From the NCBI GenBank assembly GCA_009692425.1, contig SHZF01000036.1:1-47401 (forward strand): DNA of 47,401 nucleotides, written 5' to 3'. A program made the translations under genes and the position numbers. Each line of letters begins with the position of its first letter. Within the stretch, counting starts at the first letter, position 1. The notes below the pieces were generated by a model. It saw only the letters and a program-made list of their open reading frames with translations. It ran no database searches and was not told where the DNA came from. This DNA is from Myxococcales bacterium. GTDB taxonomy: Bacteria > Myxococcota_A > UBA9042. Positions 3,446-38,239 of this stretch are shown piece by piece.

Positions 3446-4153
3446 ATGTCGTTCCTGCACTGGTTTTTCGATGTTTTCCTGCACCTCGATCAGCATATCG
3501 TGCAGTGGGCCAACCAGTTTGGTGGCTGGCTCTACGCAGTGTTGTTCGGCATCGTGTTTGCTGAGACGGGCCTCGTCGTTACGCCGTTCCTGCCCGGCGA
3601 TTCGCTGCTGTTCGCCGTTGGCGCGCTGACTGCACTGCCCGGTTCGCCCCTCGAACTGTGGTCGACGATGGCCCTGCTGATCGTCGCGGCCATCCTCGGC
3701 GACGCCGCGAACTACGCGATCGGCCGCCGGCTGGGGCCGCGGGTCTTCCAGCGCGACGACTCGCTGTTGCTGAACAAGAAGCACGTCGAACGCACCCACG
3801 CCTTCTACGAAAAGCACGGCGGCAAGACGATCATCTTTGCGCGCTTCGTGCCGATCATCCGCACGTTCGCGCCCTTCGTCGCCGGCATCGGTGCGATGGG
3901 CTACCGCAAGTTCTCGATGTACAACGTGGCCGGCGCCATCCTGTGGGTCGCCTCGTTCACCGCAGCGGGGCATCTTTTCGGCCAGGTGCCGGCCGTGAAG
4001 CGCAACTTCCAGTACGTGATCCTGGCCATCATCATCGTGTCGATCCTGCCGGGCGTGATCGAGGTGCTGCGCGCTCGTGCCGCCGCCAAGGGGCTGCGGC
4101 AGGCCGACGGGGCAGCCAAGGCCGCCACTGCACCCCTGCCCGCGTCCGAGTAG
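3446..4153 (+). CDS. DedA-family inner-membrane protein
   Basis: 235 residues with several hydrophobic segments. DedA/SNARE-associated family features: FAETGLVVTPFLPGDSLLF near residues 37-55, GDAANYAIGRRLG near 86-98, FYEKHGGKTIIFARFVPIIRT near 117-137, then GIGAMGYRKF and a C-terminal hydrophobic helix. Members are linked to envelope homeostasis, and some flip undecaprenyl phosphate or other lipids. The start is ATG with GAGG five bases upstream. The tail after the last helix is Ala/Lys-rich. It lies in the same-direction run with the S51-like pair and the EamA transporter. Confidence 0.93.
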   Translation: MSFLHWFFDVFLHLDQHIVQWANQFGGWLYAVLFGIVFAETGLVVTPFLPGDSLLFAVGALTALPGSPLELWSTMALLIVAAILGDAANYAIGRRLGPRVFQRDDSLLLNKKHVERTHAFYEKHGGKTIIFARFVPIIRTFAPFVAGIGAMGYRKFSMYNVAGAILWVASFTAAGHLFGQVPAVKRNFQYVILAIIIVSILPGVIEVLRARAAAKGLRQADGAAKAATAPLPASE

Positions 4154-19258: not shown

Positions 19259-21328
19259 ATGCGCCGCACCGTCCTGCCCCTCCTCCTGCTCGCCATGCTG
19301 TTGCCCACAACGGCCGTCGCCGTGCCGAAAACCCTGAGCCTGCAAGGGTACTTGCGTACGTCCGGCGGCGCGCCCGTGCCCGACGGCGACTACGGCCTCA
19401 CCGTGCGCTTCTACGACAAGCAGGTGGGCGGCGCCGAACTGTACTCCGACCTGTCGCCCGGCGTGAAGGTCCAGGGCGGCGTGTTCGACATGACTGTCGG
19501 CGTCGTCAAACCATTGGACCTCCAAGCATTTACTACGGCGCAGGCCACGTGGGTCGGCGTCTCGATTGGGACAGAACCCGAACTGCCGCGCGCTCCGCTC
19601 CACGCTGTGCCCTATGCCGTGCGCGCGCTGGTGGCCACGCAACTGGCGTGCAGTGCGTGCGTCGGCGCGGCCCAACTGGAGCCCGGCGTGCTCGCGGGCC
19701 TGACGAAGTCCGGCGAACTGGCCAAGGTCGCCACCAGCGGCCTTTTCGCGGACCTGACCGGCGGCCCGGACCTCACTGCGTACGCCAAGCTGGGCGAACT
19801 GGCCAAGGTGGCCAAGACCGGCGCGTTTGCTGACTTGACCGGTGGCCCCAATCTCAGCGCCTACGCCAAGCTTGCGGACCTCGGGCCCTATGCGAAGGCG
19901 GTCGAACTCGCGGCAGTGGCCACCAGCGGCTCCTACACGGACCTCAAGGGCACGCCCGACCTCAAGCCCTATGCCAAGATCGCAGACCTGCCCGGCGTCG
20001 CGCAGACCGGCAAGTTTGCGGATCTGAACGGTATCCCCCCGCTGGCGCAGCTCGGCAAGGCGTGCGGCTCAGGCCTGTTCGTGCGCGGACTGCTGGCCGA
20101 CGGCGCGCTCGACTGTGCCGTGCCCGAGGTCAAGGTGACGCTGCCGCCCGACGGGCTCGCCGCGGTTTCGAACGGCGCGCTGACCAACGTGTTCGTCGTG
20201 GCGAGCGCGAAGACACCGGCCGCGCCCATCCCCGACAACAGTCCGCTGGGTGCCACCGACGAACTCGACGTGCCCGACGTCGGCACCGTGCAGTCGCTCA
20301 CCGTGAGCGTCAAGGTGTTGAATTCAGACATTTCTGGCTTGACCGTCAAGCTGTATGACCCGAACCTCAAAACGTACGTGCTCCACGACAAAAGCGGCAA
20401 CGGCGGCGTGCTCGACACGACCTATCCGCAACCGAGCATGCCCGTGAGCGGCGATCTCGGCGGCTGGATCGGCAAGAATCCGAAGGGCAAGTGGCGGCTC
20501 GAGGTCATCGACTCAAAGTTCTTCAACAACAAGGACGACGGCCAACTCGTCGCGTGGAAGGTCACGACCCAGGCCGTGTCGGCGCAGAACGTCGAGGTCA
20601 AGGGCGATGTGGCGGTGTTGGGCGCGGTGCTGCCGGGAGCCTTCCGCTTCCCCATCGGCGCGGCGGCGCCGTTCGCGTGTACGCCCGACAGGCTCGGCTT
20701 TGCCTACCTCGAAACGGGCTCGACCGACCTGAAGGTCTGCCGCGGCGGCAAGTGGACGGCGGCCGTCTTCCGCGAGTGCGGCAACGGCGTGGTCGAGGCG
20801 CCCGAGGCGTGTGACGATGGTGCCGCCAACTCCGACGCGCCGGGCAAGTGCCGGACGACCTGCCTCAAGCCGGCGTGCGGCGACAAGATCATCGACCCCG
20901 GCGAGCCGTGCGACGACGGCAATGATGTCACGACGGACGGCTGCGACGCCTGCAAGATTCCGTGCGCGAACGGGTATCTCTACAACAGCGTGTGTTTGCG
21001 CGCGGTGGTCCAGACGACCAACGGCAACCAGCCCCCGGCGGGCTGCACGCCATACCAGCCAGCGGTCAAGTGGGGGCAGCCCGAGTACCTTGCGATCTGC
21101 AACTACTTCTCGCCCAAGCTGGGCAAGACCGTGAACTGTGCCGCCGTCGATACGGATGCCGACGGCGGCCTGTGCAACAACTACCAGGCGTTGCTGTCGT
21201 GGGAAGCGAACTCGAGCCCCGACATCTGGCTCCACAGCGCGTCGTTCACCTGGAACCCGAAGAACGGCGCGAACAACTGCAACCTGGTCAGTGCCGGCGA
21301 CGACATCGTGGTGTACGCCTGCAAGTAA
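19259..21328 (+). CDS. Secreted modular protein: tail-fibre-like repeats, P/Homo B domain and Cys-rich repeats
   Basis: 689 residues with a clear signal peptide (LLLLAMLLPTTAVA). Residues about 25-130 resemble the beta domain that often precedes tail-fibre-like repeats. Residues about 140-265 are degenerate repeats of the phage-tail type, each ending AKVATSGLFADLTGGPDL or similar. A P/Homo B-like beta-sandwich spans about 330-440 (SLTVSVKVLNSDISGLTVKL; LGGWIGKNPKGKWRLEV), seen elsewhere attached to proteases but here without one. Two CGNGVVEAPEACDDG-type repeats cover about 506-565. The last 110 residues contain six Cys and no known motif. GAGG precedes the ATG by seven bases. Likely extracellular adhesion or display; inference only. 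Confidence 0.82.
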   Translation: MRRTVLPLLLLAMLLPTTAVAVPKTLSLQGYLRTSGGAPVPDGDYGLTVRFYDKQVGGAELYSDLSPGVKVQGGVFDMTVGVVKPLDLQAFTTAQATWVGVSIGTEPELPRAPLHAVPYAVRALVATQLACSACVGAAQLEPGVLAGLTKSGELAKVATSGLFADLTGGPDLTAYAKLGELAKVAKTGAFADLTGGPNLSAYAKLADLGPYAKAVELAAVATSGSYTDLKGTPDLKPYAKIADLPGVAQTGKFADLNGIPPLAQLGKACGSGLFVRGLLADGALDCAVPEVKVTLPPDGLAAVSNGALTNVFVVASAKTPAAPIPDNSPLGATDELDVPDVGTVQSLTVSVKVLNSDISGLTVKLYDPNLKTYVLHDKSGNGGVLDTTYPQPSMPVSGDLGGWIGKNPKGKWRLEVIDSKFFNNKDDGQLVAWKVTTQAVSAQNVEVKGDVAVLGAVLPGAFRFPIGAAAPFACTPDRLGFAYLETGSTDLKVCRGGKWTAAVFRECGNGVVEAPEACDDGAANSDAPGKCRTTCLKPACGDKIIDPGEPCDDGNDVTTDGCDACKIPCANGYLYNSVCLRAVVQTTNGNQPPAGCTPYQPAVKWGQPEYLAICNYFSPKLGKTVNCAAVDTDADGGLCNNYQALLSWEANSSPDIWLHSASFTWNPKNGANNCNLVSAGDDIVVYACK

Positions 21329-21344
21329 GGCACGAGAATCGCGG

Positions 21345-24300
21345 TCAAGGCGTGGCCACGCAGTTCGCAACGGCTGTGAACTTGCACTTGCCCGTCGCCC
21401 CGTCGCACGTGTCGGCCGTGCAGCTGTCGAAATCGTTGCAGGCCATGGCGTTCCACGTCACCCGCCGGATGCGGTGGTTCGACGTGTCTGCCACCGCGAG
21501 GCTGCCCGCGCTGTCGAACGCCACGCCCTGTGGCGCGCTGAACATCGCCTTGTTTGCCGGGCCATCGCCCCACGCGTACTGGCCGGTGCCCGCGATCGTC
21601 CACACGGTGCCGTCGGGCTTGACGCCGCGCAGGCGATGGTTGTCCTTGTCCGCCACGATCACGAAGCCCGCGGGCGACCACGCGACATCTGCGGGATTGT
21701 TGAATTTCGCCACCGCCGCGGGGCCGTCGGCCATGCCCGCATAGGTGCCCGCGACCGTCGTCACCATGCCGTCGGGTGCCAGTCGGCGCACGCGGTGGTT
21801 GCCCGTGTCGGCGAACCACAGGCCGCCCTTGTCGTCCATCGCAAGACCTTGAGGTCCATTGAGTTGTGCCAGCGCGCCGACCGCGTCCTTCCACCCCTTC
21901 GCGCTGCCGGCCACCGTCGTGGTCTGTCCGGTCACCATCACCTTGCGGATGCGGTTGTTGAACTGGTCCGCGACGTAGAGTACTGCCTTGCCATCGAGCA
22001 CGAGGTCGGTGGGCCCGTTGAAGCGCGCACCGGTGCCGCTGCCGTCCTGAAAGCCAGAAAATCCGTCACCTGCCAGGGTCGACACCATGCCCTGCGGCGT
22101 GATTCGGCGGATCCGGTGGCCCTGCGACTCCGCCACGTAGACGGTGCCGTCCTTGGCGACCACGACACCTGCGGGGCCGTTGAACTGGGCAAAGGCTCCC
22201 GGCCCATCGAGGCCGCCCGGCGCCCCGGTGCCGGCCCACGTCGTCACTTTCGTGTCGCCGCCACCCTTGCCGTCGAATGTGACCTTGCGGACGCGGTGCC
22301 CCTGCCAGTCCGCCACGAAGATGGACCCGTCCGGTCCCCACGCGGCGTCACGCGGCAAGAGGAAGCTGGCGAGGTTCCCGGGGCCATCCTGGCTGCCGGG
22401 CATGCCGGAACCCGCGGCCGTCGCCACGTCGCCCTGTGCGCCCACTTCACACTGGCCGGACACGCAGTTCTCGTCTGCGGTGCACGCGGTGCCGTCGTCA
22501 CAGGCCGCATCCAGTTCGCCGTGCTCGCACGCTCCGGTCGCGCCCGCGCAGTAGTCGACCGTGCAGGCGTTCGCGTCGTCACAGGACGCTGTCGAGCCGA
22601 GGCACGCTCCCGCGCTGCTGCAGACGTCTGCCGTCGTGCAGGCGTTCCAGTCTGTGCACGGGCCGCCCGGTGCGATAGGCGGGAAGTTGCAGGTCGCGGC
22701 CTTGGCGTCGCACACGTCCTGAGTGCACAGCTTGCCGTCCCAGCACGTCACCGCGTTCGGAGTCAGGCGGCGCACACGGTGGTTGCCCGTGTCGGCCACC
22801 AGCAGGCTGCCGCCGGCTTCGATCGCGATCGCCTGCGGGCCCACGAAGGCGGCACTTTTCGCATTGCCGTCCACCCACCCGGTGTACTCGCCACCCAGGG
22901 TAGAGACCACACCGTCCTTGCGCACGAGACGCACGCGATGGTTGTCGCGGTCTGTCAGGATCAGGCTGCCGCCGCCGACCGACGACCACGCGATGCCGTG
23001 CGGCGCCGACAGCTTCGCCTTCGGGCCGGGGCCATCGACGTACCCGAACGAACTGCCGGCCACCGTCACGACCTGCCCTTCCGGCCCGAGGCGCCGCACG
23101 CGGTGGCCCGTCGACTCGCTAAACCAGAGCGTGCCGCCGGGGTCCATCGCCAGGCCCATCGGCCCGTCGAGCACGGCCTGTGCGGCCGGGCCATCCTTCC
23201 ACCCCTTGAGTCCGCTGCCGGCTACCGTCGAGACGACACCCGCCTGCAGCTTGCGGATGCGCTGGTTGCCAAAGTCGGCGATGTACACGGTGCCCGCGGC
23301 GTCTACCGCGACGCCCGTCGGATTCTGGAAGCGCGCCTTGCCCGCCGGCCCGTCTGCGAACCCCGGCACGCCGTCGCCCGCCACCGATGTCACCTGGCCG
23401 ACCGCATCGATCTTGCGCACGCGCTGCCCCTGCCACTCCGCCACGAAAAGCCCGCCGCCTTTGTCGAGCGCGATGCCGCGCGGTTGGTTGAACTTCGCCT
23501 GCGTGCCCAGGCCGTCGGCGTGGCCCGGCGTGCCGCTGCCGGCCCACAGCGTCACGGCGCCGTCCGGTCCGATGCGCCGCACGCGGTGGCCGGCGAACTC
23601 GGTCACGAACGCGAACCCGGCGCCGTCCACGGCAATGCCGCCCGGCTCGACGAAGCTCGCCTTGTCTCCGGGGCCGTCGATCCCGCCCGGCTGGCCCGAG
23701 CCCGCGACCGTGGTGACCGTCCCCGACGGGTCGGCCACGCACTGGCCGGCACTGCACTGGTCGCCCTTCGTGCACGCTGAGCCGTCGTCGCACGGCCCGG
23801 TCAACTGGGCGTGGGTGCAACTCCCCGAGGCCTTCGCGCAGCCGTCCGACGTGCACGGATTCGCGTCGTCGCAGTCCTTCTTCGGGTGCGCGCACAGCAC
23901 CGTCTTGGGGTCGCACGTGTCGTCCGTGCACGGGTCGGCATCGACGCAAGCGATGGTGTCCCAACCGGAACCGTTCGCCTTGCACGTGGCCGGCTTGCCA
24001 TCGACGCACGCCTTTTGGCCGACGCTGCAGGCCTTGTCGGCGCACGCACCCGCGTTGCAGAACTTGCCCTGCGCGGCGCAGTCCGCCAGCGTGGTCTGCT
24101 TCGTGCCGGTCGCGTTGCAGGCGAGCGCGATGCCGCCTTGGCACGTGGCCTGACCGGGCTCGCACACCTTGGGCAGGCAACCGCCGCCGTCGCAGGCCTC
24201 GCCCGCCGGGCAGGCCGTCTGCGTCCAGGTCTTGCCGTCTGCGCACGTGGCAACCAGCCCCGCCTCGCACTTCGTCGCACCCACGTTACAGCCCACGAGC

Positions 24301-24914
24301 GCGCACTTGCCGGCCACGCATTGTTGACCGGCGGCAGCACAGTCGACCACGGCAGCCGCACCGCTGCCGTCGGCCGCGCACAGCTTGACGACGGCGCCAT
24401 CGCAAGACGTCGCGCCCGGGGCACACGCCAGCGCCTCGCACTTGCCGGCCTTGCACTTCGCCTGAGCGCCGCACGCTTGCGGTACCCACAGGCCGTCGGC
24501 GCCGCACGCCGCCGCGGTCGCGGCATCGACGCACTGCAACTCGCCAGGCTGGCAGTTGCCGCACGTGTGCTTATCCACGATGCAGATGCCCGTCGCGCAG
24601 TCCACGTGCTTGTCGCAGGGCTGGCCCGTGGCCGCCAGAGGGACATCCGGGGCTGCCGTGTCGCCGTCGCTCGCAACTGTTTCCTTGGGCGCCGCCGCAT
24701 CGACCTGGGCCGGCGCAGTTTCCGCGCCCGTGCTCGCATCGCTCACCGTCGTTGCATCACTCGACAAGACCGGCAGCGTGTCGCTGTCGGAGCACGCCCA
24801 GCCCAGCGCAGCCAGCCCAAACAACATCGCATGCCGCGCGCCCCACTTCTCGCCGCGCCATTGGAGGATCAGGGCGCACCATCGCAGTGCCGGCGCCGTC
24901 CATGTCACTGCCAT
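21345..24914 (-). CDS. NHL-repeat lipoprotein with two six-bladed propellers
   Basis: 1189 residues. A long N-region precedes a hydrophobic stretch and lipobox-like LGWAC (Cys41). Residues about 75-390 are Cys-rich short repeats (CAAQGKFCNAGACADKACS type and CDDGSACTKGDQC). Two blocks of six NHL-like blades follow, about 400-720 and 828-1155. Each blade runs VTTVAGSG, DGPG, ARFNGPTGVAVD, VYVAD and NHRIRRI. Each block is followed by a Cys-rich linker (CWDGKLCTQDVCD; CNDFDSCTADTCD). NHL propellers bind protein or RNA partners, or carry extracellular enzymes; no catalytic motif is visible. Start ATG 24914 is chosen for its AAAGGAG five bases upstream; ATG 24827 would give a shorter signal peptide. 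Convergent with the previous gene, 16 bases apart. Confidence 0.85.
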   Translation of the reverse strand: MAVTWTAPALRWCALILQWRGEKWGARHAMLFGLAALGWACSDSDTLPVLSSDATTVSDASTGAETAPAQVDAAAPKETVASDGDTAAPDVPLAATGQPCDKHVDCATGICIVDKHTCGNCQPGELQCVDAATAAACGADGLWVPQACGAQAKCKAGKCEALACAPGATSCDGAVVKLCAADGSGAAAVVDCAAAGQQCVAGKCALVGCNVGATKCEAGLVATCADGKTWTQTACPAGEACDGGGCLPKVCEPGQATCQGGIALACNATGTKQTTLADCAAQGKFCNAGACADKACSVGQKACVDGKPATCKANGSGWDTIACVDADPCTDDTCDPKTVLCAHPKKDCDDANPCTSDGCAKASGSCTHAQLTGPCDDGSACTKGDQCSAGQCVADPSGTVTTVAGSGQPGGIDGPGDKASFVEPGGIAVDGAGFAFVTEFAGHRVRRIGPDGAVTLWAGSGTPGHADGLGTQAKFNQPRGIALDKGGGLFVAEWQGQRVRKIDAVGQVTSVAGDGVPGFADGPAGKARFQNPTGVAVDAAGTVYIADFGNQRIRKLQAGVVSTVAGSGLKGWKDGPAAQAVLDGPMGLAMDPGGTLWFSESTGHRVRRLGPEGQVVTVAGSSFGYVDGPGPKAKLSAPHGIAWSSVGGGSLILTDRDNHRVRLVRKDGVVSTLGGEYTGWVDGNAKSAAFVGPQAIAIEAGGSLLVADTGNHRVRRLTPNAVTCWDGKLCTQDVCDAKAATCNFPPIAPGGPCTDWNACTTADVCSSAGACLGSTASCDDANACTVDYCAGATGACEHGELDAACDDGTACTADENCVSGQCEVGAQGDVATAAGSGMPGSQDGPGNLASFLLPRDAAWGPDGSIFVADWQGHRVRKVTFDGKGGGDTKVTTWAGTGAPGGLDGPGAFAQFNGPAGVVVAKDGTVYVAESQGHRIRRITPQGMVSTLAGDGFSGFQDGSGTGARFNGPTDLVLDGKAVLYVADQFNNRIRKVMVTGQTTTVAGSAKGWKDAVGALAQLNGPQGLAMDDKGGLWFADTGNHRVRRLAPDGMVTTVAGTYAGMADGPAAVAKFNNPADVAWSPAGFVIVADKDNHRLRGVKPDGTVWTIAGTGQYAWGDGPANKAMFSAPQGVAFDSAGSLAVADTSNHRIRRVTWNAMACNDFDSCTADTCDGATGKCKFTAVANCVATP

Positions 24915-24953
24915 CCTAGCTCCTTTCCCGTTGCTGGCGCCGCCGCCCATCAG

Positions 24954-27900
24954 CTACTTGTCATTCGTTGAACAGATCACCCATCCGGTCACGAGCACGC
25001 TGTTCACCTGATCGTTCCACTGGCCATAGTCGCACTTGTTCGTCGCATACGAATACAGGCGGTAGGCGGTGCTGTTGTCGCCGTTCGGCTCGAACGCCTC
25101 GCAGTTCGCGTTGTTCGTCGAACTCAGCCAGAACGTGCAGGGTACGCCCTTGCAGATGCCTTGCCAGTTGTTCAGGCCGGTTGCGCCATTCGTCTTGGGG
25201 AAGACGTTCACGAGGTTCGGCACCGCGCCACCGTTCCAGGCCCGGATCGCGTTGGCGTGGGCCTGGGAGCGCGGCACCACCACCTCCATGCCGAACTGGG
25301 CACACGCGGCGGCGTAAGGCTCCTGCTTGCCTTCGAGCGCCGTGCCTTCGTAGCGTAGCCACGTGTAGGGGCCGCCGGGCGTTGCCATGTCGCAGTACGC
25401 CACCACCGCCGGCTTCGCGCCGATGGGGCCGTCGATATCGATCGTGTACTTGCCGCTCTGCGCATTCGGATCGACCGCCGCCTTGACTGCCGCGCACGAC
25501 GGCGCCGACTGCGAGGTGCACGCCTTGCCGTTGCCCGCGTACCCGGGCTTGCACGCACACGTGTTGGCGCCCGGCGTGTTCGTACAGATTGCGGTGAAGT
25601 GGCAGCCGCCGTTGCTGGTCTTGCATTCATCGACGTCGGCGCAGGCCTTGCCTTCGCCACTGTAGCCCGGCTTGCACGCGCAAGTGTTCCCGCCCGGCGT
25701 GTTCGTGCACACCGCGTCCGCATGGCAGCCGCCGTTGCCCGTCTTGCACTCATCGACATCGCCGCACGTCTTGCCGTCGCCGACGTAGCCAGGCTTGCAC
25801 AGGCACGTGAAGCCGCCGATCGTGTTCGTGCACGTGGCCTGGGGGCTGCAACTCGAGTCGCCGGTCTTGCACTCGTCGACGTCCGTGCACAACTTGCCGT
25901 CGCCGCTCCAACCGCCTTTGCAGGCGCACGAGAAGTTGCCCACCGCATTCGTGCACAGGGCGCTCGGGTGGCATGGCGGCACGCTGGCCTTGCACTCGTC
26001 GGTGTCCTGGCACTGGCCGCCGCTCGCTTCGAAACCGACGCCGCAGCCGCACTTGAAGGAGCCGGGTAGGTTCGTGCACAAAAGCGCCCCGCACGGGCTC
26101 GGCTTCTGCTGGCACTCGTCGACGTCGGCACACACCTTGCCATCGCCGCTCCAGCCGGCCTTGCAGGTGCACGTCGCTGCGAGGTTCGTCCCGAGGCTGC
26201 ACGTGGCCAGGGCGTGGCAGCCCGCCGCCCCGCTCGCGCACGCATCGGCGTACGTGGCGACATTGCGCACGAACCAGCCGCTCGCGCCCACCAGATCACA
26301 CGCCACACTAGCGAACCGGAGGCGCACGCGAAAAGCCTTGCCGGCCACGGCGAGCGCCACTTTGACTGGCTCCCAATTCGCATTGGGCGCCGGCGCCGCT
26401 TTCGAGCCCGGGGGCGCCACGACGAGCGCGACCTGCCACGACGCGCCGGCGTCTTTCGACGTTTCCACGTGTGCCTTCACCGAGGCCGCCGGCCACTTGC
26501 CAGCATGCTCGAACACCAACCAGATTGGCGTCTTGCTGGCTACGTCCGTCGCGTCGAATTGCGGGCTCGTCGCGGTCGCCAGCACCTGCGTCTGGGCGGC
26601 GCCGCACACGAGGTCCTTGCCGTTGTTGAGGTTGAGCGCGCACTGCGTCGGCGCCGCGGCGAGGTCGACGGGCGTCTTGTCCACCTTCCAGCGCACGGCC
26701 GGCGCCGCCTTGGAGCCTGCCAGAGGGCCGCCGTCGTGCTGCAACGACCACAGCGCATTCTGGGTCGCGCCACACGCCATCGGGACCACCAGCGGCAGGC
26801 TCGCCTTGCCGCAATTCGGGTCCACCACCGCCACCGCGACGCAGCCCTTCTTGCCGTCGCACGCGTCCGTCGTGCACGGCGAGCCGTCGTCGCAGTCGGC
26901 CTTGTCGCCGACGCACTGGCCGAGATGGCACTCGTCGTCCTTCGTGCACAGGTTGCCGTCGTCGCAGGCCTGCTCGGCGAACCCGTGGTCGCAGCCCACC
27001 GCCTTCTTGCAGGTATCGGTCGTGCAGGCTGCGCCGTCGTCGCAGTCCTTCGGCACCCCGCCGCATTGGGCGCCTGCACACACGTCGGCTGCCGTGCAGG
27101 GTTCCCCGTCGTTGCACGGCGCGCTGTTCGGCTTCGCCACGCAACCGGCCTTGACCGTGTCGCACGCGTCGTCGGTGCAGGGGTTGCCGTCGTCACAGGG
27201 CTTGGCCTGGCCGAGGCACGCGAGGTTGGCGCACTGGTCGCCGAGCGTGCACGGGTTGCCGTCGTCGCACGCCGCCGCATTCGGCACATGGGTACACCCC
27301 ACCGCTCCGAGCGCACCGCCGCAACCGTCGGCGGTACACGTCACGTCGTCCGCGCAGGCCGCGGCCGTCGGCTTGCCATCGGATTCCTTTGTTTCGTCGA
27401 TGGCGCCGTCACAATCGTCGTCGATGCCGTTGCACAGTTCGGCGCCCGCCGGCTTGGCGGAGCACGTCGACAAGCCCGCCGCCGAACAACTCCGCGCTCC
27501 GCCACACTGCGGGGCCGCCCGCGTGCCCGGCAGGGGGGCCAGGCCGACGAAACAGGGTGTCGCCGCCGCCGCCGCAATGGCCGCGGCACTGCACGTGCAG
27601 ACGCGGCTCTCCGGCACACAGTGGCCCTGCTTCGTGCCATCGACCGCGAGAACGGGCGCACAAATGTGGCCCGCCGCGCATTGCGCCGTCTCCTTGCACG
27701 CCGCCGCGCAGAAGAAGCCACCGCGCCCCTCGTTGCCCTCGACGTCGACGCAGCCACCGGTCGGGCCGAGGCCAGCGCAATCCGCCGCATTCGCACACGG
27801 TCGGCAGTTCGGATTGTCCTTGGGCAGGCACACCTTGGCGATGCCGATCGGCTGGCCGGTCGCATCCGTGAGGACCACCTGGTTGCACGCGAAACCTGCC

Positions 27901-28163
27901 GCGCACGCATCGCCCGCATTGCACGAGTTCGCGCAGACCTTGCCGCCCGGTGCCGCGGCGCACGCCCCCGACTTGCAGGCTGAGTCGCTGCCGCACGCGC
28001 AGCCGGCCTGACCTGGGCACGCCAGGCCGAGGTCGCCGCTGCCGTCGAAGGCAAAGGTGGCCACGGTATCGGGGTCGCCAGCAACGGGCTCTGCGGTGCA
28101 TCCGACTACCGCAGCGACGCACGCCGCCGTTGCCGAGCCGAGAACCGCGGCGCCCCACGACAT
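24954..28163 (-). CDS. EGF- and fibrinogen-like surface lipoprotein
   Basis: 1069 residues. Signal peptide with lipobox-like VVGC, then Cys-rich modules to about 290, a MopE-like ELCNGIDDDCDGAIDE motif and six CDDGNPCTDDACD repeats to about 450. A beta-rich domain without known motif covers 460-640. Six EGF-like modules follow (about 640-885); five begin DVDECK, the calcium-binding EGF signature. The last 180 residues open like a fibrinogen-related domain (SGKYTIDIDG, VAYCDMATPGGPYTWLRYEG). Such module mixes suggest calcium-dependent adhesion at the outer membrane. The start was set at ATG 28163; ATG 28238 is in frame but adds a charged segment. It lies 39 bases upstream of the NHL lipoprotein gene, so they may be one transcript. 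Confidence 0.82.
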   Translation of the reverse strand: MSWGAAVLGSATAACVAAVVGCTAEPVAGDPDTVATFAFDGSGDLGLACPGQAGCACGSDSACKSGACAAAPGGKVCANSCNAGDACAAGFACNQVVLTDATGQPIGIAKVCLPKDNPNCRPCANAADCAGLGPTGGCVDVEGNEGRGGFFCAAACKETAQCAAGHICAPVLAVDGTKQGHCVPESRVCTCSAAAIAAAAATPCFVGLAPLPGTRAAPQCGGARSCSAAGLSTCSAKPAGAELCNGIDDDCDGAIDETKESDGKPTAAACADDVTCTADGCGGALGAVGCTHVPNAAACDDGNPCTLGDQCANLACLGQAKPCDDGNPCTDDACDTVKAGCVAKPNSAPCNDGEPCTAADVCAGAQCGGVPKDCDDGAACTTDTCKKAVGCDHGFAEQACDDGNLCTKDDECHLGQCVGDKADCDDGSPCTTDACDGKKGCVAVAVVDPNCGKASLPLVVPMACGATQNALWSLQHDGGPLAGSKAAPAVRWKVDKTPVDLAAAPTQCALNLNNGKDLVCGAAQTQVLATATSPQFDATDVASKTPIWLVFEHAGKWPAASVKAHVETSKDAGASWQVALVVAPPGSKAAPAPNANWEPVKVALAVAGKAFRVRLRFASVACDLVGASGWFVRNVATYADACASGAAGCHALATCSLGTNLAATCTCKAGWSGDGKVCADVDECQQKPSPCGALLCTNLPGSFKCGCGVGFEASGGQCQDTDECKASVPPCHPSALCTNAVGNFSCACKGGWSGDGKLCTDVDECKTGDSSCSPQATCTNTIGGFTCLCKPGYVGDGKTCGDVDECKTGNGGCHADAVCTNTPGGNTCACKPGYSGEGKACADVDECKTSNGGCHFTAICTNTPGANTCACKPGYAGNGKACTSQSAPSCAAVKAAVDPNAQSGKYTIDIDGPIGAKPAVVAYCDMATPGGPYTWLRYEGTALEGKQEPYAAACAQFGMEVVVPRSQAHANAIRAWNGGAVPNLVNVFPKTNGATGLNNWQGICKGVPCTFWLSSTNNANCEAFEPNGDNSTAYRLYSYATNKCDYGQWNDQVNSVLVTGWVICSTNDK

Positions 28164-28279
28164 GCGGCGAGGCCCGATACTTGCCGACTCACGGTGCGGT
28201 TCCACGATGCGGCCTCCAGCGCCCACAGCGCCCCGCATGGTATGCTGCGGGGCGGGGCGGGACAAGCAACCGGTGCGTC

Positions 28280-28429
28280 CCCGATCCGTCACCTTCGGCG
28301 TATTTCGTCGTTGCCGTCGTCGGTTGGCGGTTCGACGTACCCTTTTGGGCGCGTTCACCGCGAACCTTCTACTCGCCTAGAACTACATCCGAATTCGTCG
28401 TCCGGGGAAGGTTGGCCGGTGGATGCTGG
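28280..28429 (-). repeat. Dispersed intergenic repeat, copy A
   Basis: About 150 bases sharing the same order of blocks with 41822-41970. A 41-base core is identical (28302-28342 here; 41844-41884 there), flanked by weaker but clear similarity, including CGAATTCG and GGGGAAGG blocks. The core carries CGTCG/CGACG arms (28306-28310 and 28333-28337). It begins 34 bases after the stop codon of the GGDEF gene (minus strand) and fills most of the 300-base gap to the EGF lipoprotein gene. No protein is supported in it. It may act in transcript ends; the rest of the gap shows nothing clear. Confidence 0.85.
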
Positions 28430-29741: not shown

Positions 29742-32399
29742 ATGACCCAGCACGTCTACCTGTTCACCGAGGGCCGCGCGGCGATGCGGACGCTGCTCGG
29801 CGGAAAGGGCGCAAATCTTGCGGAGATGACCCGGATCGGCCTGCCGGTGCCACCCGGCTTCACGATCACGGCGGCGACCTGCCTGGCGTATGGGCGCGGC
29901 GGCGGCACCTTCCCCGAGGGACTGAACGAGCAGGTCGAGACGGCGCTGGCGGTGGTCGAAGGCCTCGTCGGGCGCCGTTTCGGTGCGGCCGAGCGGCCGC
30001 TGTTGGTCTCGGTGCGTTCGGGCGCCGCCGTGTCGATGCCCGGCATGATGGACACCGTGCTGAACCTCGGCCTCAACGATGCGACCGTGCTGGCCCATGC
30101 GCGCGACACCGGCGACGCCCGCTTTGCGTGGGACTGCTACCGCCGCTTCTTGCAGATGTTCGGCAGCGTCGTGCTCGGCGTGGCGCATCACGAGTTCGAG
30201 CACGTGCTGGCGGGGTTCAAGGCCCGCCTCGGGGTCCAGGCAGACACCGACCTGGCACCCGCCGACTTGCAGGAACTCGTCGCCGCGTATCAGGCGTTGA
30301 TCGTGGCAGAGGCCGGCCAGGCGTTTCCGCAGGAGCCCCGCGCCCAGCTCGAAGCCGCCCTGCGTGCCGTGTTCGGTTCGTGGGACAATCCGCGTGCCAA
30401 GGTCTACCGCCGCGTCCACAAGATCGCCGACGACATGGGCACCGCGGTCAACGTGCAATCGATGGTGTTTGGCAACATGGGGCAGACGTCGGCGACCGGC
30501 GTCGTCTTCACCCGCGACCCGTCCACGGGCGAAAAGACCGTCCACGGCGAGTACCTGCTCAACGCGCAGGGCGAAGACGTCGTGGCCGGCATCCGCACGC
30601 CGCATCCGATCGCACAGATGCAGGCCGAACTGCCCGATGCCTTTGCGGAACTCTACGCGACGAGCGAGCGCCTGGAGGCACATTTCGGCGACATGCAGGA
30701 CATCGAGTTCACGGTCGAGCGCGGCAAACTGTGGATGCTTCAGTGCCGCACGGGCAAGCGCGCGCCCGGTGCCGCGATCCGCATCGCGGCCGACTTCGTG
30801 CGCGAGGGCAAGATCGACAAAGCCCAGGCGGTGTTGCGCGTGACACCCGAGGACCTCCAGAAAGCGATGCACCCGCGCATCGATCCCGCCGCCGCCCTCG
30901 ACGTGATCGCGCGCGGCCAACCGGCGAGTCCCGGCGCGGCCCAGGGCCAGCTCTGCTTCGACCCCGACGAGGCGGTGCGCCTGCACGCGGCCGGCGGCCA
31001 GGTCCTGTTGGTGCGGCCCGAGACGACGCCCGACGACATCCACGGCATGGTGGCGTCGACCGGCTTCGTGACCACACGCGGCGGCACCACCTGCCACGCG
31101 GCGATCGTGGCGCGCGGCATGGGCAAGCCGTGCGTGGTGGGGTGTGCCGATCTGCACATCGACTTCGACGCCGGGCAACTGCACGTCGGCGCTCGCACCA
31201 TCGCCGCCGGGCAATGGCTGACGATCGATGGCGGAGATGGACGCATCGTGGTCGGTCGCGCGCCGCTCGTCGATGCCTCGATGTCCGGCGATTTCGCAGA
31301 GTTGCTGGGATGGGCTGATGAATTCCGCCGCTTGAAGGTGCGCGCCAACGCCGACAACCCGCCGGACGCCGAGAAGGCCCGCGCGTTCGGCGCCGAGGGC
31401 ATCGGGCTGTGCCGCACCGAGCACATGTTCGGCCAAGGTGGGCACCATCCGGAGCGCATGGCCGTCGTGCAGCGCATGATCCTGGCCGACACGCAGGTTG
31501 ACCGGCAAGCCGCGCTCGACGAGCTCTTCCCCATGCAACGCGACGACTTCGACGGCATCTTGCGCGCGATGGCGCCGCACCCGGTCACGATCCGCCTGCT
31601 CGACCCGCCGCTGCACGAATTCCTGCCGGCCGCAGAAGACCTGGCCGTGGCCGTGGCCGTGGCCCGTGCCGAGGGACGCGCCGCGCCGCGCGAGGAGAAA
31701 CTGCTCGCCGCCGTGCGCCAACTTGCCGAAGTGAACCCGATGCTCGGGCTGCGCGGCGTCCGACTCGGCCTCGTGATGCCAGAGGTCTACGAGATGCAGG
31801 TGCGGGCGCTGATCACCGCTGCGGAAAATCTCCACATGCAGGGAATTCCTGTACGCCCCGAGATCATGATTCCGCTCGTCGGCCACGTCGAGGAACTGCG
31901 GCGCATGAAGGCCATGATCGATCGCATCACCGCAGAACTGCAACCGAACGTCTCGTTCCAGGTCGGCACGATGATTGAGGTGCCGCGCGCCGCGCTGACG
32001 GCCGGGGCGATCGCCGGGATCGCGGAATTCTTCAGTTTTGGTACGAACGACCTGACGCAGATGACCTGGGGCTACAGCCGCGACGATGCCGAAGGGGGAT
32101 TCCTGGCGCAGTACGTCGCCGACAAGGTACTGGCGGTGAACCCGTTCGTGTCGATCGACCGCGACGGTGTGGGCCGCTTGATCCAGATGGCGTGCGTCGA
32201 GGGACGTGCGGTGCGACCCAACCTCCACCTCGGCATCTGCGGCGAGCACGGCGGCGACCCCGACAGCATCGCGTTCTGCCATGCGGCCGGACTGGACTAC
32301 GTGTCGTGCTCCCCTTACCGCGTCCCCGTCGCCCGGTTGGCTGCGGCGCAGGCGGCGCTGGCCGCGGGCGGCGCAAAGGCGTCCACGTCTGCCGTATAG
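29742..32399 (+). CDS. ppdK: Pyruvate, phosphate dikinase
   Basis: 885 residues, normal length. Interconverts pyruvate, ATP and phosphate with phosphoenolpyruvate, AMP and pyrophosphate. The N-terminal nucleotide domain has LLGGKGANLAEM, SVRSGAAVSMPGMMDTVLNLG and NKWDN-like FGSWDNPRA. The phosphohistidine is His452 in GGTTCHAAIVARGMGKPCVVG. The C-terminal PEP-utilising barrel carries GIGLCRTEHMF, then EFFSFGTNDLTQMTWGYSRDD and catalytic Cys833 in LGICGEHGGDP. A GTGGCC tandem (31646-31663) makes a short Ala-Val run near 635. GGAGG precedes the ATG, but can pair in a hairpin. The stop at 32399 is followed by a 496-base gap. Confidence 0.97.
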   Translation: MTQHVYLFTEGRAAMRTLLGGKGANLAEMTRIGLPVPPGFTITAATCLAYGRGGGTFPEGLNEQVETALAVVEGLVGRRFGAAERPLLVSVRSGAAVSMPGMMDTVLNLGLNDATVLAHARDTGDARFAWDCYRRFLQMFGSVVLGVAHHEFEHVLAGFKARLGVQADTDLAPADLQELVAAYQALIVAEAGQAFPQEPRAQLEAALRAVFGSWDNPRAKVYRRVHKIADDMGTAVNVQSMVFGNMGQTSATGVVFTRDPSTGEKTVHGEYLLNAQGEDVVAGIRTPHPIAQMQAELPDAFAELYATSERLEAHFGDMQDIEFTVERGKLWMLQCRTGKRAPGAAIRIAADFVREGKIDKAQAVLRVTPEDLQKAMHPRIDPAAALDVIARGQPASPGAAQGQLCFDPDEAVRLHAAGGQVLLVRPETTPDDIHGMVASTGFVTTRGGTTCHAAIVARGMGKPCVVGCADLHIDFDAGQLHVGARTIAAGQWLTIDGGDGRIVVGRAPLVDASMSGDFAELLGWADEFRRLKVRANADNPPDAEKARAFGAEGIGLCRTEHMFGQGGHHPERMAVVQRMILADTQVDRQAALDELFPMQRDDFDGILRAMAPHPVTIRLLDPPLHEFLPAAEDLAVAVAVARAEGRAAPREEKLLAAVRQLAEVNPMLGLRGVRLGLVMPEVYEMQVRALITAAENLHMQGIPVRPEIMIPLVGHVEELRRMKAMIDRITAELQPNVSFQVGTMIEVPRAALTAGAIAGIAEFFSFGTNDLTQMTWGYSRDDAEGGFLAQYVADKVLAVNPFVSIDRDGVGRLIQMACVEGRAVRPNLHLGICGEHGGDPDSIAFCHAAGLDYVSCSPYRVPVARLAAAQAALAAGGAKASTSAV

Positions 32400-32418
32400 C
32401 GTCCTCGCGGCGCCCGAT

Positions 32419-32433
32419 GCCTCAAAGTGAGGC
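32419..32433 (+). other. Short inverted repeat after ppdK
   Basis: GCCTCA (32419-32424) and TGAGGC (32428-32433) form a perfect six-base inverted repeat with a three-base loop, 20 bases after the ppdK stop. There is no T run after it, so it is a weak terminator candidate, or a protein-binding site. Confidence 0.4.
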
Positions 32434-32499
32434 AGTCGCGCTGGGTGGGCTGCGCTGCGTCCCTATCTGAGACAATCGGCCGGGCTGGGGACGAATCCT

Positions 32500-32519
32500 C
32501 GTGAAGAGGCGTGAAGGGC
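32500..32519 (+). promoter_or_regulatory. Tandem 10-base direct repeat upstream of a sigma-54-like promoter
   Basis: CGTGAAGAGG (32500-32509) is followed directly by CGTGAAGGGC. The pair lies about 70-80 bases upstream of the GG of the putative -24 element. That distance suits an enhancer-binding activator site (inference). Confidence 0.35.
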
Positions 32520-32579: not shown

Positions 32580-32595
32580 TGGCACGGCTCATGCA
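32580..32595 (+). promoter_or_regulatory. Near-consensus sigma-54 promoter
   Basis: TGGCACG at 32580-32586, four spacer bases, then ATGCA at 32591-32595. The sigma-54 consensus is TGGCACG-N4-TTGCA/T, so there is one mismatch, with correct GG-to-GC spacing. It sits in the least GC-rich patch of the window. No protein-coding gene starts downstream on this strand for over 1.7 kb; the intrinsic terminator at 32821-32860 is the next element. Expected transcript start is about 32606. Confidence 0.6.
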
Positions 32596-32605
32596 TGTTC
32601 TTCCA

Positions 32606-32860
32606 TGTGGAGCGAGCAGAATCCCTATGACTTCCATGAACCCTTTCCAACACGTCCTCACAAACCGTCGGCAACGCCAGTTGCCGGCATCCCACTGGTG
32701 CGCGGCGCGGTCCGAGCCTTGGTCGACGGCCCATCGATAGGGAGTGGCCCACCGACAATCACCCGATTGCTTGACCTTCCCGCCCGCATCCCTTCCACCC
32801 CTCCTCTCTCTCCAAACCCTCTGGCCGCCGTGACGAAAGTCCGGCGGCCAGTTTGTTTTT
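32606..32860 (+). ncRNA. Candidate sigma-54-dependent small RNA, about 255 bases
   Basis: Inferred from a sigma-54-like promoter at 32580-32595 and a strong intrinsic terminator ending near 32860, with no supported gene between. Visible structure: a CGGCAAC/GTTGCCG hairpin with GCCA loop (32669-32686); a CCACT/AGTGG pairing (32692-32696 with 32743-32747); and a pyrimidine-rich stretch at 32790-32813 containing CCTCCT, which could pair with ribosome-binding sites. The nearby minus-strand Nudix gene ends at 32896, so the terminator could also serve it. No match to tmRNA, SRP RNA or RNase P was recognised. The 5' end is only an estimate. The remaining part of the 32400-32895 gap shows the listed repeats and nothing else clear. 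Confidence 0.45.
32821..32860. terminator. Intrinsic terminator hairpin
   Basis: A perfect nine-base stem, CTGGCCGCC (32821-32829) with GGCGGCCAG (32843-32851), closes a 13-base loop and is followed by TTTGTTTTT on the plus strand. This is the clearest terminator in the window. The T run makes the plus strand the main direction; the hairpin also lies 36 bases past the Nudix stop on the minus strand, though without a good T run there. Confidence 0.8.
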
Positions 32861-32895: not shown

Positions 32896-33420
32896 TCAGC
32901 GCAGCTTGCGCACTGCCCGCCGCACCGACTCGTCGGCTTCGAGGCCGGCCACGTCGTCCCATGCCACCCAGCGGGCGGCCTGCGCGTCCGAGGCCGCCCG
33001 CACTGCCAGCGTCCGCGCCTGGAACACGTAGCGCACGTCGTAGTGGAGGTGATCCGGTTCCGCGCGGCGGGCAGGAATCCTGTGGATGTCGAGGTCGAGC
33101 AGGCGACCCTCAGGGGCCAGATCGGCAGAGTGGAGTCCGGTTTCTTCTTCCACTTCGCGCCGTGCCGCCGCATGCACGTCCACGTCGCCCGGCTCCACGT
33201 GCCCACCGGGCTGGAGCCAGCGCAGGAGCTTGCCATGCCAGATCAGGAGCAGGCGGCTGCCGTCGGGTGCCACGATGAATGCCGAGGCGGTGAAGTGGCC
33301 CGGCACGAAGTGGTCCCGCGCAAACGGGGTCCGGCTCGTCGCGAGCAGGGTCGCCATCGCGTGCCGATGCGCCGCCTCCAGTGCGTCGCCGGGCTGCACG
33401 CCGTCGAGTTCGCGCTGCAA
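32896..33420 (-). CDS. Nudix hydrolase
   Basis: About 174 residues from a TTG start. Nudix enzymes hydrolyse nucleoside diphosphates linked to another group. The Nudix box is QPGGHVEPGD followed by AARREVEEETGL, matching GX5EX7REUXEEXGU. Upstream, FARDHFVPGHFTASAFIVAP is typical of one Nudix subgroup with a short helical N-terminus, which favours a longer start than ATG 33357; GTG 33399 is another option. The substrate is unknown. Same strand as the MlaE-type permease, whose stop at 33444 is 24 bases upstream. Confidence 0.85.
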   Translation of the reverse strand: MQRELDGVQPGDALEAAHRHAMATLLATSRTPFARDHFVPGHFTASAFIVAPDGSRLLLIWHGKLLRWLQPGGHVEPGDVDVHAAARREVEEETGLHSADLAPEGRLLDLDIHRIPARRAEPDHLHYDVRYVFQARTLAVRAASDAQAARWVAWDDVAGLEADESVRRAVRKLR

Positions 33421-35869: not shown

Positions 35870-37288
35870 CTAGCACGGGCCGTCCTTCCAGCCGAACTTG
35901 CCGTTCGGGTTGTAGCATTCGGCCTGGCACTTGTTCACGTACGTCTGACCGTCGTCGCCGCACACGAACTTCTCGGTGTTCGTGCAGGAACAGAGGCACG
36001 GCCCCTTGTACTCGGTGACCCAACCGGTGACGCCCGCCGTCAAGCACTTGTACTCGTCGTTGTTCCGGAACGTGACCCACTGGCTGCCGCCCTTGCCATC
36101 GGACTTCGAAGCGCACACCTGGTTGACTACGCTGTAGTCGACGTCCGGGCAGCAGCCCTTGGCCTTGTACAGCGACGACGAGCACACGTCGTTCTTGGTC
36201 GCGCTGATGCCGTCGCAAACGCCTACCGTGGCTTCCGCCGCGCCCGCCGTGCAAGCATTGCGAAACGACTGCCCTTTGCCGCTCTTCAAGATGCCGCACA
36301 CGGGGTCGCAGTCCGGCTTGCAGATGGGCGTCTTGGCCACGTCGAAGCACGCGCCGTCACATTCCTTGATCATCTTGGCCGGCGCGCACGCGTCGCTCTT
36401 GACCTGGTCGCCGACCGGGAAGCAGCCCGGCTTCTCGCAGTTCTGCATGGCGCAGTCGTTCGTGTACGTCTTCTGGCCCGCCGCGCACACAGGCTGTAAT
36501 TTCAGCAGGTTGCATCCTCCGCCGCCCTGAGTTGTCGGCTTGGAGCACGACTGCTTGCACGGACCCTTGTAGTAGACGGGCTTGCCGTCGGCCGTCTTCT
36601 TCGCATCGACGCACTTGATCTCGCACTCCATCTTGACGGTGACCTCGACGCCCGTGGCCAACGTCGCACAAAAGCCAAGCGGGTCGGGCACGTCGGTCGG
36701 CTTGCACTCGGCGCACGACGGGCAGGCTTTGGGCAGCAAGCTCTTGCCGCCCTCACAGACCGCTACGCAATCGTTGGCGTATTGGGTCATCTTGCCAGTC
36801 GGCGACACGCCGCACACGGCAAATTCGGTGCACTTGCTCTTGCAGTTGGCGCAGCGCTGCTTGTCCGACAACGTCTTGGGGCCCGCGCACGCCGGCAGCT
36901 CGAGCGTGCTGAGCGGCGCAACGTCGGCCGTGGCGTCGACCGTCACTCCGCCGTCCACCGTGCCGGACACATCTGCCCCCGGCGTCACCGCGTCTGGGCC
37001 CGCCGTGCCATCGGTATCGACGACGCCATCTGCGGGCGCCGCCGTGCCGTCGCCCGTTGCAGCATCGGCCTTCACGTCGCCGGTGCGCGGCGACCCACCG
37101 TCTCCACTGGTCTCGGCGCGGGCGGTTGCGTCACCGCGCGGGCCGGAGTCGGGGTCTTCGCCCGCATCCTCGCCGCCGGTCGAAGTATTGGCCTTGACGG
37201 GATCCTCCGCGCACGCGACAGCGCCCAGCAGGGCAAACACGGCAAAAGAAGTGGCGACAATGAACCTGGAACAACGAGCGATACGCAT
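35870..37288 (-). CDS. Cysteine-rich lipoprotein with Kazal-like modules
   Basis: 472 residues. Signal peptide with lipobox (LLGAVAC, Cys26), then an Asp/Gly/Thr/Ala-rich linker to about 120. The remainder has many Cys in modules resembling Kazal domains: the clearest is FVCGDDGQTYVNKCQAEC near the C-terminus; others are FAVCGVSPTGKMTQYANDC, QPVCAAGQKTYTNDCAMQNC and DPVCGILKSGKGQSFRNAC. Kazal domains often inhibit serine proteases, so the protein may guard the surface against proteases (inference). GAGG lies eight bases before the ATG. Convergent with the siroheme genes. Confidence 0.82.
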   Translation of the reverse strand: MRIARCSRFIVATSFAVFALLGAVACAEDPVKANTSTGGEDAGEDPDSGPRGDATARAETSGDGGSPRTGDVKADAATGDGTAAPADGVVDTDGTAGPDAVTPGADVSGTVDGGVTVDATADVAPLSTLELPACAGPKTLSDKQRCANCKSKCTEFAVCGVSPTGKMTQYANDCVAVCEGGKSLLPKACPSCAECKPTDVPDPLGFCATLATGVEVTVKMECEIKCVDAKKTADGKPVYYKGPCKQSCSKPTTQGGGGCNLLKLQPVCAAGQKTYTNDCAMQNCEKPGCFPVGDQVKSDACAPAKMIKECDGACFDVAKTPICKPDCDPVCGILKSGKGQSFRNACTAGAAEATVGVCDGISATKNDVCSSSLYKAKGCCPDVDYSVVNQVCASKSDGKGGSQWVTFRNNDEYKCLTAGVTGWVTEYKGPCLCSCTNTEKFVCGDDGQTYVNKCQAECYNPNGKFGWKDGPC

Positions 37289-37386
37289 CGTGAAGCCTCG
37301 CGGCGCGGAGGGGCGGAGGTGCTGCGTGGAACCGGGGCGCAGAACCGATGGCGACAGTATCGCGAAAAGCGCGCCGGGTTGCCAGA

Positions 37387-38239
37387 TCAACCTGCGCCAT
37401 GGGCCGGTGCCCGGCGGCGCACGCCGTCCAGGAGGTGGGCGTGGCCCAATCCGAGACACACGGCGCGCACGGCTTCGTCGCCTGCCTGCATCCTGTCGAA
37501 GGTCGTAGCGTACGCGTGGCGCGCGATCCGTGCGCGCGCGTCGGTGTTCTTGGGGCTGGTCTCGAAAAGGGTCTCATCGCGCTCGTCGGGCTCGAGTAGC
37601 GCAAGGCCGAGGTCCGGACGGTCGGCCCGGAATCGCCGCAACCCAAGGTGGAGCTTTACGTTGTTGGCCATGCGAAAGCTCTGGTTCCAGATGGCCACCA
37701 TCCCGCGGGAGCGGATGCGCGACAACGTGGCCGCCTCGATGTCGGCATCGTCGGGGCCGCGCTCGCGCAGGCGGCGCTCCAGGTTCCACGGCACGACGGG
37801 GTTGATCACGAGCACGTGTGTGCACCCCGCGTGCTGGGCCCGGCTCACGCATCAGGCGCAACCCCAACTGTATGAGTACGCGGGGGATTGTGCGCCCGTG
37901 GCCCACGAGCTCGGGCCAGTCCGGCTGGTATACGTCGGCCCGATCCAGGCGAAAAAAAGCGTCACCCGTCGTCACCGCCTGGTAAAGCTGCGTGATCGAA
38001 ATTCCGCCGGCGACCAGTGCTGCGACCAGCGAACCGGCAGAACTGCCGACAACGACATCGAATTGTGCGACGGAAAATCCCGGGATCGCCGCTTCGAGCG
38101 CGGCCAGTGCACCAATTTCGTAGGCCGCACCCGTCGCGCCGCCCCCGCACAGGCAAAGTCCCAGGCGCCGGCCCGGCACGGGCGCCTCATCGGCGCTGGG
38201 GAGCGCTGGATCTGCGGGCGAGAGTTTCGACCGGTTCAT
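37387..38239 (-). pseudogene. Patatin-like phospholipase, internally deleted and frameshifted
   Basis: The N-terminal piece (38239 down to about 37850, roughly 130 residues) has the patatin oxyanion motif LCGGGATGAAYE and nucleophile motif GSSAGS. The frame then runs into Arg/Pro-rich nonsense. A second frame (37848 to 37387, 153 residues) resumes with the patatin C-terminal region: HAGCTHVLVINPVVP, SRIRSRGMVAIWNQ and LHLGLRRF. The usual middle third, including the catalytic DGG aspartate, is missing. Together the pieces give about 280 residues. A deletion with frameshift near 37850 is the simplest reading; an assembly error is the alternative. Its start is 159 bases from the divergent amidohydrolase gene. 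Confidence 0.75.

Follow-up and report, generated by a model that had tools for sequence, protein, structure and literature searches.

A putative sigma-54-controlled, pseudoknotted small RNA family in a Myxococcales bacterium and its relatives

Background

To our knowledge, the small RNAs (sRNAs) controlled by sigma-54 are few, namely Qrr, GlmY/GlmZ and Pxr, and they tend to head life-style decisions. GlmY and GlmZ have a size of about 200 nt, and the sites of GlrR have the form TGTC-N10-GACA. The cuckoo RNAs of alpha-proteobacteria, which are short C/U-rich anti-Shine-Dalgarno sRNAs, carry their motif in hairpin loops. The Pxr sRNA of Myxococcus xanthus is 108 nt long, folds into three stem-loops and is transcribed from a sigma-54 promoter downstream of the activator gene nla19; it occurs in the Cystobacterineae, with paralogues in some species (PMC5568312). 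In Vibrionaceae the Qrr sRNAs are turned on via sigma-54 by enhancer-binding proteins (LuxO/SypG) (PMC10162802), and GlmY and GlmZ are two homologous sRNAs with sigma-54 promoters (GlrR/QseF) (PMC3844500).

The locus described here lies in a contig of a Myxococcales bacterium, of which the whole stretch of 47,401 nt was analysed (the window). Judged from sequence comparison, one gap between its genes almost certainly holds a sigma-54-controlled structured noncoding RNA. This RNA resembles Pxr in being an sRNA with its own sigma-54 promoter and paralogues in some species, but it has about 250 nt instead of 108, is pseudoknotted, and has no adjacent activator gene where Pxr has nla19. A comparison by published description revealed no similarity between the two. 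The likeness to Qrr consists in the control of sRNAs by sigma-54 and an enhancer-binding protein, whereas the region in the window has no Rfam match, the RNA has a large pseudoknotted core, and no Hfq was found in the genome. The TGTC-N9-GACA sites of the window RNA family resemble those of GlrR; GlmY and GlmZ, in contrast, are enterobacterial and act with RapZ, and no Rfam match exists for the RNA here. As in cuckoo RNAs there is an unpaired C/U-rich stretch complementary to ribosome-binding sites, which here forms a linker of a pseudoknotted RNA and is not placed in hairpin loops.

Results

The gap and its terminator

The gap is bordered by ppdK (29742-32399, plus strand), whose product has PEP-utilising domains, and by a Nudix ORF on the minus strand with its boundary at 32896, convergent to the RNA. 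The preliminary description was thus right that no supported gene lies between promoter and terminator. Among the genome contigs, relatives of ppdK came from distant phyla only (50-58% identity) and offered no useful gap. The predicted RNA extends over about 250 nt from the predicted +1 to the U tract (32606..32860, plus strand), matches the covariance model of its family with 116 bits (E 1.9e-26), and folds with a z score of -4.55, none of 200 shuffles being as good. It ends in an intrinsic terminator (32821..32860, plus strand) with a stem at 32821-32851 followed by the U tract TTTGTTTTT. This terminator had been called the strongest in the window, and our own scan agreed, with a score of 45 against 36 for the next one. 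A stock scan for sigma-70 promoters and terminators missed it because its loop is longer than 8 nt. Among the 33 members of the family a terminator was detected by scan in 31, and at the 3' end of the other pair stands a hairpin followed by a short run of U. From the single sequence alone, the claim of a small RNA gene is plausible, short of established. The strongest signals are the recurrence at 33 loci and the pseudoknot, neither of which is visible in one sequence.

Distribution and genomic neighbourhoods

A BLAST search of the gap against relatives gave matches in 11 of 53 genomes including the query genome, all belonging to one family, and the matches covered the promoter, GAGCGAGCAGAATCCCTATGACTTCCATGAAC, GGCCCATCGATAGGGAGTGGCCCA and the terminator with hardly anything between. 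With a covariance model built from 13 sequences (R1), the RNA was found in 20 of the 22 family genomes, including all 15 high-quality ones, giving 33 genes in total; 13 genomes have two copies and 7 have one. Both family genomes without the RNA are incomplete (67% and 88%). When model R2 was run over 379 genomes of the phylum, the same 33 genes were returned at 62 bits or more and the next best match had 24 bits; the RNA is therefore restricted to the family as sampled. The weak matches outside it (L125-L127 and those of 24 bits or lower) were attributed to chance, since the three inspected show neither promoter nor RNA around them. Above the gathering score, the Rfam 15 covariance models gave only two tRNAs in the window, and nothing credible emerged for the gap down to an E value of 10; the low-threshold hits, to eukaryotic lncRNAs and to a single Enterococcus sRNA model, were likewise regarded as chance. 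The RNA is a new family of a known kind, the sigma-54-controlled sRNAs, set apart from Pxr by description.

Eleven members sit downstream of ppdK on the same strand, and four further members have the Nudix/ABC-F side of the ppdK locus. Ten others are flanked by a diacylglycerol-kinase-like gene on one side and a Clp-type AAA+ gene on the other (named after the Pfam matches at L140); one of these is the second copy in the window's genome (L140:3760-4013, G000:C17), which model R1 had located at 3760-3906. In the window and at L128-L131, L149, L153, L155 and L157, the conserved gene that comes next runs convergently, and the RNA is therefore a separate transcription unit. Convergent neighbours, two neighbourhoods and a lack of coding signal are what is expected of a stand-alone noncoding unit. 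A conserved protein gene common to all loci was not found. A tree of the RNAs did not separate the two locus types into clades, and its resolution is too low for the duplication to be dated.

The sigma-54 promoter and its upstream sites

The near-consensus sigma-54 (-24/-12) site named in the preliminary description, TGGCACGGCTCATGCA at 32580..32595 on the plus strand, is indeed present with one mismatch, and places the predicted +1 at about 32606. Two such one-mismatch sites were found in the window against 1.51 expected, which is chance level. Across the family, a TGGCAY-N5-TTGC promoter with 0-1 mismatch precedes 33 of 33 members, with 25-34 nt separating it from the start of the model (51 nt in L141).

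Further upstream, the members share a palindromic activator-like site with the consensus TGTCTCANNNTGAGACA. Because this consensus was derived from the same 33 members, the fair comparison is with control stretches: at least one upstream site with at least 10 of the 14 positions was present in 33/33 members and in 6/221 controls. Most members have two sites, mostly between -90 and -260, and a spacing of about 40-56 bp within such pairs is frequent. In the window, the distal site TGCCTCAAAGTGAGGCA (32418..32434, plus strand) agrees with 12 of the 14 fixed positions and is placed at -188, and the proximal site CGTCCCTATCTGAGACA (32458..32474, plus strand) agrees with 11 of 14 at -148. If up to one mismatch is allowed, the palindrome is found only 0-6 times per genome, and many of these sites belong to the RNA genes. 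A composite of half-site and promoter gave 9 matches across the 22 genomes, of which 7 fall at these RNA genes, against 0 in the reversed control. The exact palindrome was not found in the window's own genome, owing to the degeneracy of its own sites. The tandem 10-mer CGTGAAGAGG/CGTGAAGGGC at 32500-32519, which had been suggested as an enhancer, exists as described, but it is not shared by relatives and was rejected in that role; the enhancer-like element is instead the upstream TGTCTCA-N3-TGAGACA-type site.

The genome of the window contains rpoN and 12 strong matches to sigma-54 activator domains. A scan of the neighbouring ORFs for a GAFTGA-type motif, within about 6 kb around the RNAs, gave no sigma-54 activator gene.

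Fold and covariation of the RNA

The alignment of relatives with covariance analysis, which the preliminary description had named as a check, was carried out and showed that both promoter and fold are conserved and that the fold covaries. The core of the RNA is closed by helix P1, formed by GGAGCGAG (32609..32616) and CUCUCUCC (32806..32813) on the plus strand. Both strands covary, and 7 of the 8 positions pair in the window. When 31 full RNAs were aligned independently with MAFFT, compensatory changes were found at 8 of 9 pairs of P1, which reads GAGYGAG/CUCGCUC in most members and GGUGGCG/CGCCACC in L154-L159.

A 6-bp pseudoknot is formed between UCCCUA (32622..32627, plus strand) and UAGGGA (32738-32743, plus strand), the latter lying inside the loop CAUCGAUAGGGAGUG of the apical hairpin of P3 (32728..32750, plus strand). 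The stem of this hairpin covaries at 4 of 6 pairs and has invariant C-A/U-G closing pairs; in the window it contains a single C-C mismatch. The strand UCCCUA pairs with the apical loop UUAGGG(A) in 33/33 sequences with 0 broken cells, and 4 of the 6 pairs are changed on both sides (CG to UA, UA to CG, AU to GC), although the members are related and such counts overstate their independence. None of 500 shuffles reached the score of the pseudoknot and slid controls were far lower. The pseudoknot was not built into the alignment, since its model held the apical stem only, and the independent MAFFT alignment gave the same result for it. The most conserved nucleotides of the whole RNA are those of the pseudoknot and its loop (CAUCGUUAGGGAGUG). 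The hairpin noted earlier is real and corresponds to P2 (32667..32688, plus strand), with 9 bp in the minimum-energy fold; most members have a hairpin at this place, with variable sequence.

Between the pseudoknot strand and P2 lies a C/U-rich, G-poor segment of 38 nt (32629..32666, plus strand), which is predicted to be single-stranded and is a candidate target-pairing region. Its family means are 76% unpaired, 69% C/U and 7% G, compared with 38%, 51% and 33% in the middle of the RNA. Anti-Shine-Dalgarno 6-mers number 98 across the family RNAs against 38 +/- 8 in simulated ones, an enrichment whose significance is overstated because the members are related. The motif CCTCCT, which had been proposed to mask ribosome sites, was found at 32800-32805 directly before the 3' strand of P1. 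In the models, part of the C/U stretch at the 3' end is paired. The 5' C/U-rich strand is a better candidate for target pairing than this motif.

Discussion

Proposed mode of action and alternative explanations

The earlier claim of a sigma-54-dependent small RNA gene was strengthened by the comparison, as promoter, upstream sites, RNA and terminator co-occur at 33 loci in 20 genomes and in two gene neighbourhoods. The best explanation overall, to which we give a probability of roughly 0.65, is a stand-alone, pseudoknotted trans-acting sRNA that is switched on by sigma-54 and an enhancer-binding protein and pairs with ribosome-binding sites. By analogy with Qrr, GlmY and Pxr, to which it has no sequence kinship, a single dedicated enhancer-binding protein may switch on the RNA. 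An NtrC-class protein, once activated, would bind the TGTCTCA-N3-TGAGACA-type sites, which lie about 100-200 bp upstream, and would open the promoter at 32580, and RNA polymerase would then transcribe the RNA of about 250 nt up to the terminator at 32821-32860. The core, closed by P1 and locked by the UCCCUA/UAGGGA pseudoknot, would protect and present the G-poor C/U-rich single strand, which would pair with purine-rich ribosome-binding sites of mRNAs encoded in trans and repress them. Such repression would proceed without Hfq, for which no match was found in the window's genome (96% complete assembly). The comparison shows the promoter, the RNA boundaries, the fold, the copy number and the conservation. 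The proposals on Shine-Dalgarno base pairing, on repression, on the targets and on which protein is the activator are fairly probable, and less secure than these.

The C/U-rich strands could instead bind a protein. The main rival is that the RNA acts chiefly through protein binding, as a decoy or scaffold (as GlmY does for RapZ and CsrB for CsrA) that is recognised by its pseudoknot; we consider this unlikely but worth keeping in mind. It is the main rival because conservation peaks at the pseudoknot and the loop CAUCGUUAGGGAGUG and not at an exposed seed, and the two diverged copies per genome are reminiscent of GlmY/GlmZ. On the other hand, Rfam gave no match to GlmY, GlmZ or CsrB-type RNAs, and no conserved protein gene is shared across all loci. 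Capture of a CsrA-type protein is unlikely, since the AGGGA loop varies to UGGGAA or UAGAGA with pairing retained; where a CsrB/RsmZ-type sponge has several conserved ANGGA loop motifs, this RNA has a single AGGGA loop, which lies within the pseudoknot. It is improbable that the RNA is a cis-acting leader or attenuator, in the manner of a riboswitch, with read-through into a downstream gene set by the terminator. A same-strand gene does follow some members, i.e. the ClpA/B-like AAA+ gene at the second locus type and Nudix in L138, L139, L144 and L146, but at the loci listed above, including the window, the next conserved gene is convergent, no conserved antiterminator pairing with the terminator was found, and the gene neighbourhoods are of two unrelated types.

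To two remaining readings we give hardly any weight. One is that sigma-54 controls a short protein-coding gene whose start codon is the AUG in CCCUAUG; an AUG follows UCCCUAU in 20 of the 33 members and opens frames of 8-49 codons. Thirteen members are without that AUG, the frame ends differ, and substitutions fall evenly on the codon positions (26/27/31) with no excess at the third; the coding reading was rejected on these grounds. That the RNA is the 3' UTR of the ppdK mRNA or a fragment processed from it would suit the 11 members downstream of ppdK on the same strand, yet each member has its own promoter and activator-like sites, and 10 members lie instead between the lipid-kinase gene and the Clp-like gene.

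The RNA family is unrelated to the known sigma-54-controlled sRNAs, carries a conserved activator-like site of its own, has a pseudoknot supported by covariation and is present in one or two copies across a bacterial family. Taking the trans-acting sRNA as the preferred reading, it would allow sRNA control in the absence of Hfq to be tested directly, and could lead to the activator and its signal in poorly studied bacteria.

A possible regulon and other observations

At two loci, L198 (G002:C636, promoter at 1089, plus strand) and L205 (G004:C149, minus-strand promoter near 72704), a sigma-54 promoter was observed together with the upstream site shared by the RNA genes. The genes directly behind it encode small proteins of 89-106 aa with a single membrane span, which share a PCTxRxCxxHP stretch and are 31% identical over 71 aa. 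These are possible protein members of the regulon of the RNA. A more speculative and rather doubtful extension is that the dedicated enhancer-binding protein runs a tiny regulon, to which a single pseudoknotted RNA or two of them would belong, joined in some genomes (L198, L205) by the small single-membrane-span protein. If true, bacteria without Hfq would here have a self-contained sensing circuit, with the pseudoknot as a switch that opens or closes the RNA for target or protein binding.

A recurrent near-palindrome, TGTCTCAAGTTGAAACA, was also observed in the family genomes. It was opened at one locus, L162, where it lies within the first codons of an rlmN-like gene, and was set aside as probably a coding coincidence.

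Elsewhere in the window, a serine/threonine protein kinase is encoded at 62-2248 on the minus strand; its hits to many PADLOC PD-T4-6 kinase models are probably explained by the shared kinase domain alone. Large Cys-rich secreted proteins are encoded at 21345-28358 and 35870-37459 on the minus strand and at 19259-21328 on the plus strand. They include NHL-repeat, EGF/fibrinogen-like and Kazal-like proteins as well as the TIGR02232 repeat, a Cys-rich repeat of myxobacterial type that agrees with the earlier suggestion of a myxobacterium, and are typical of myxobacteria-like genomes.
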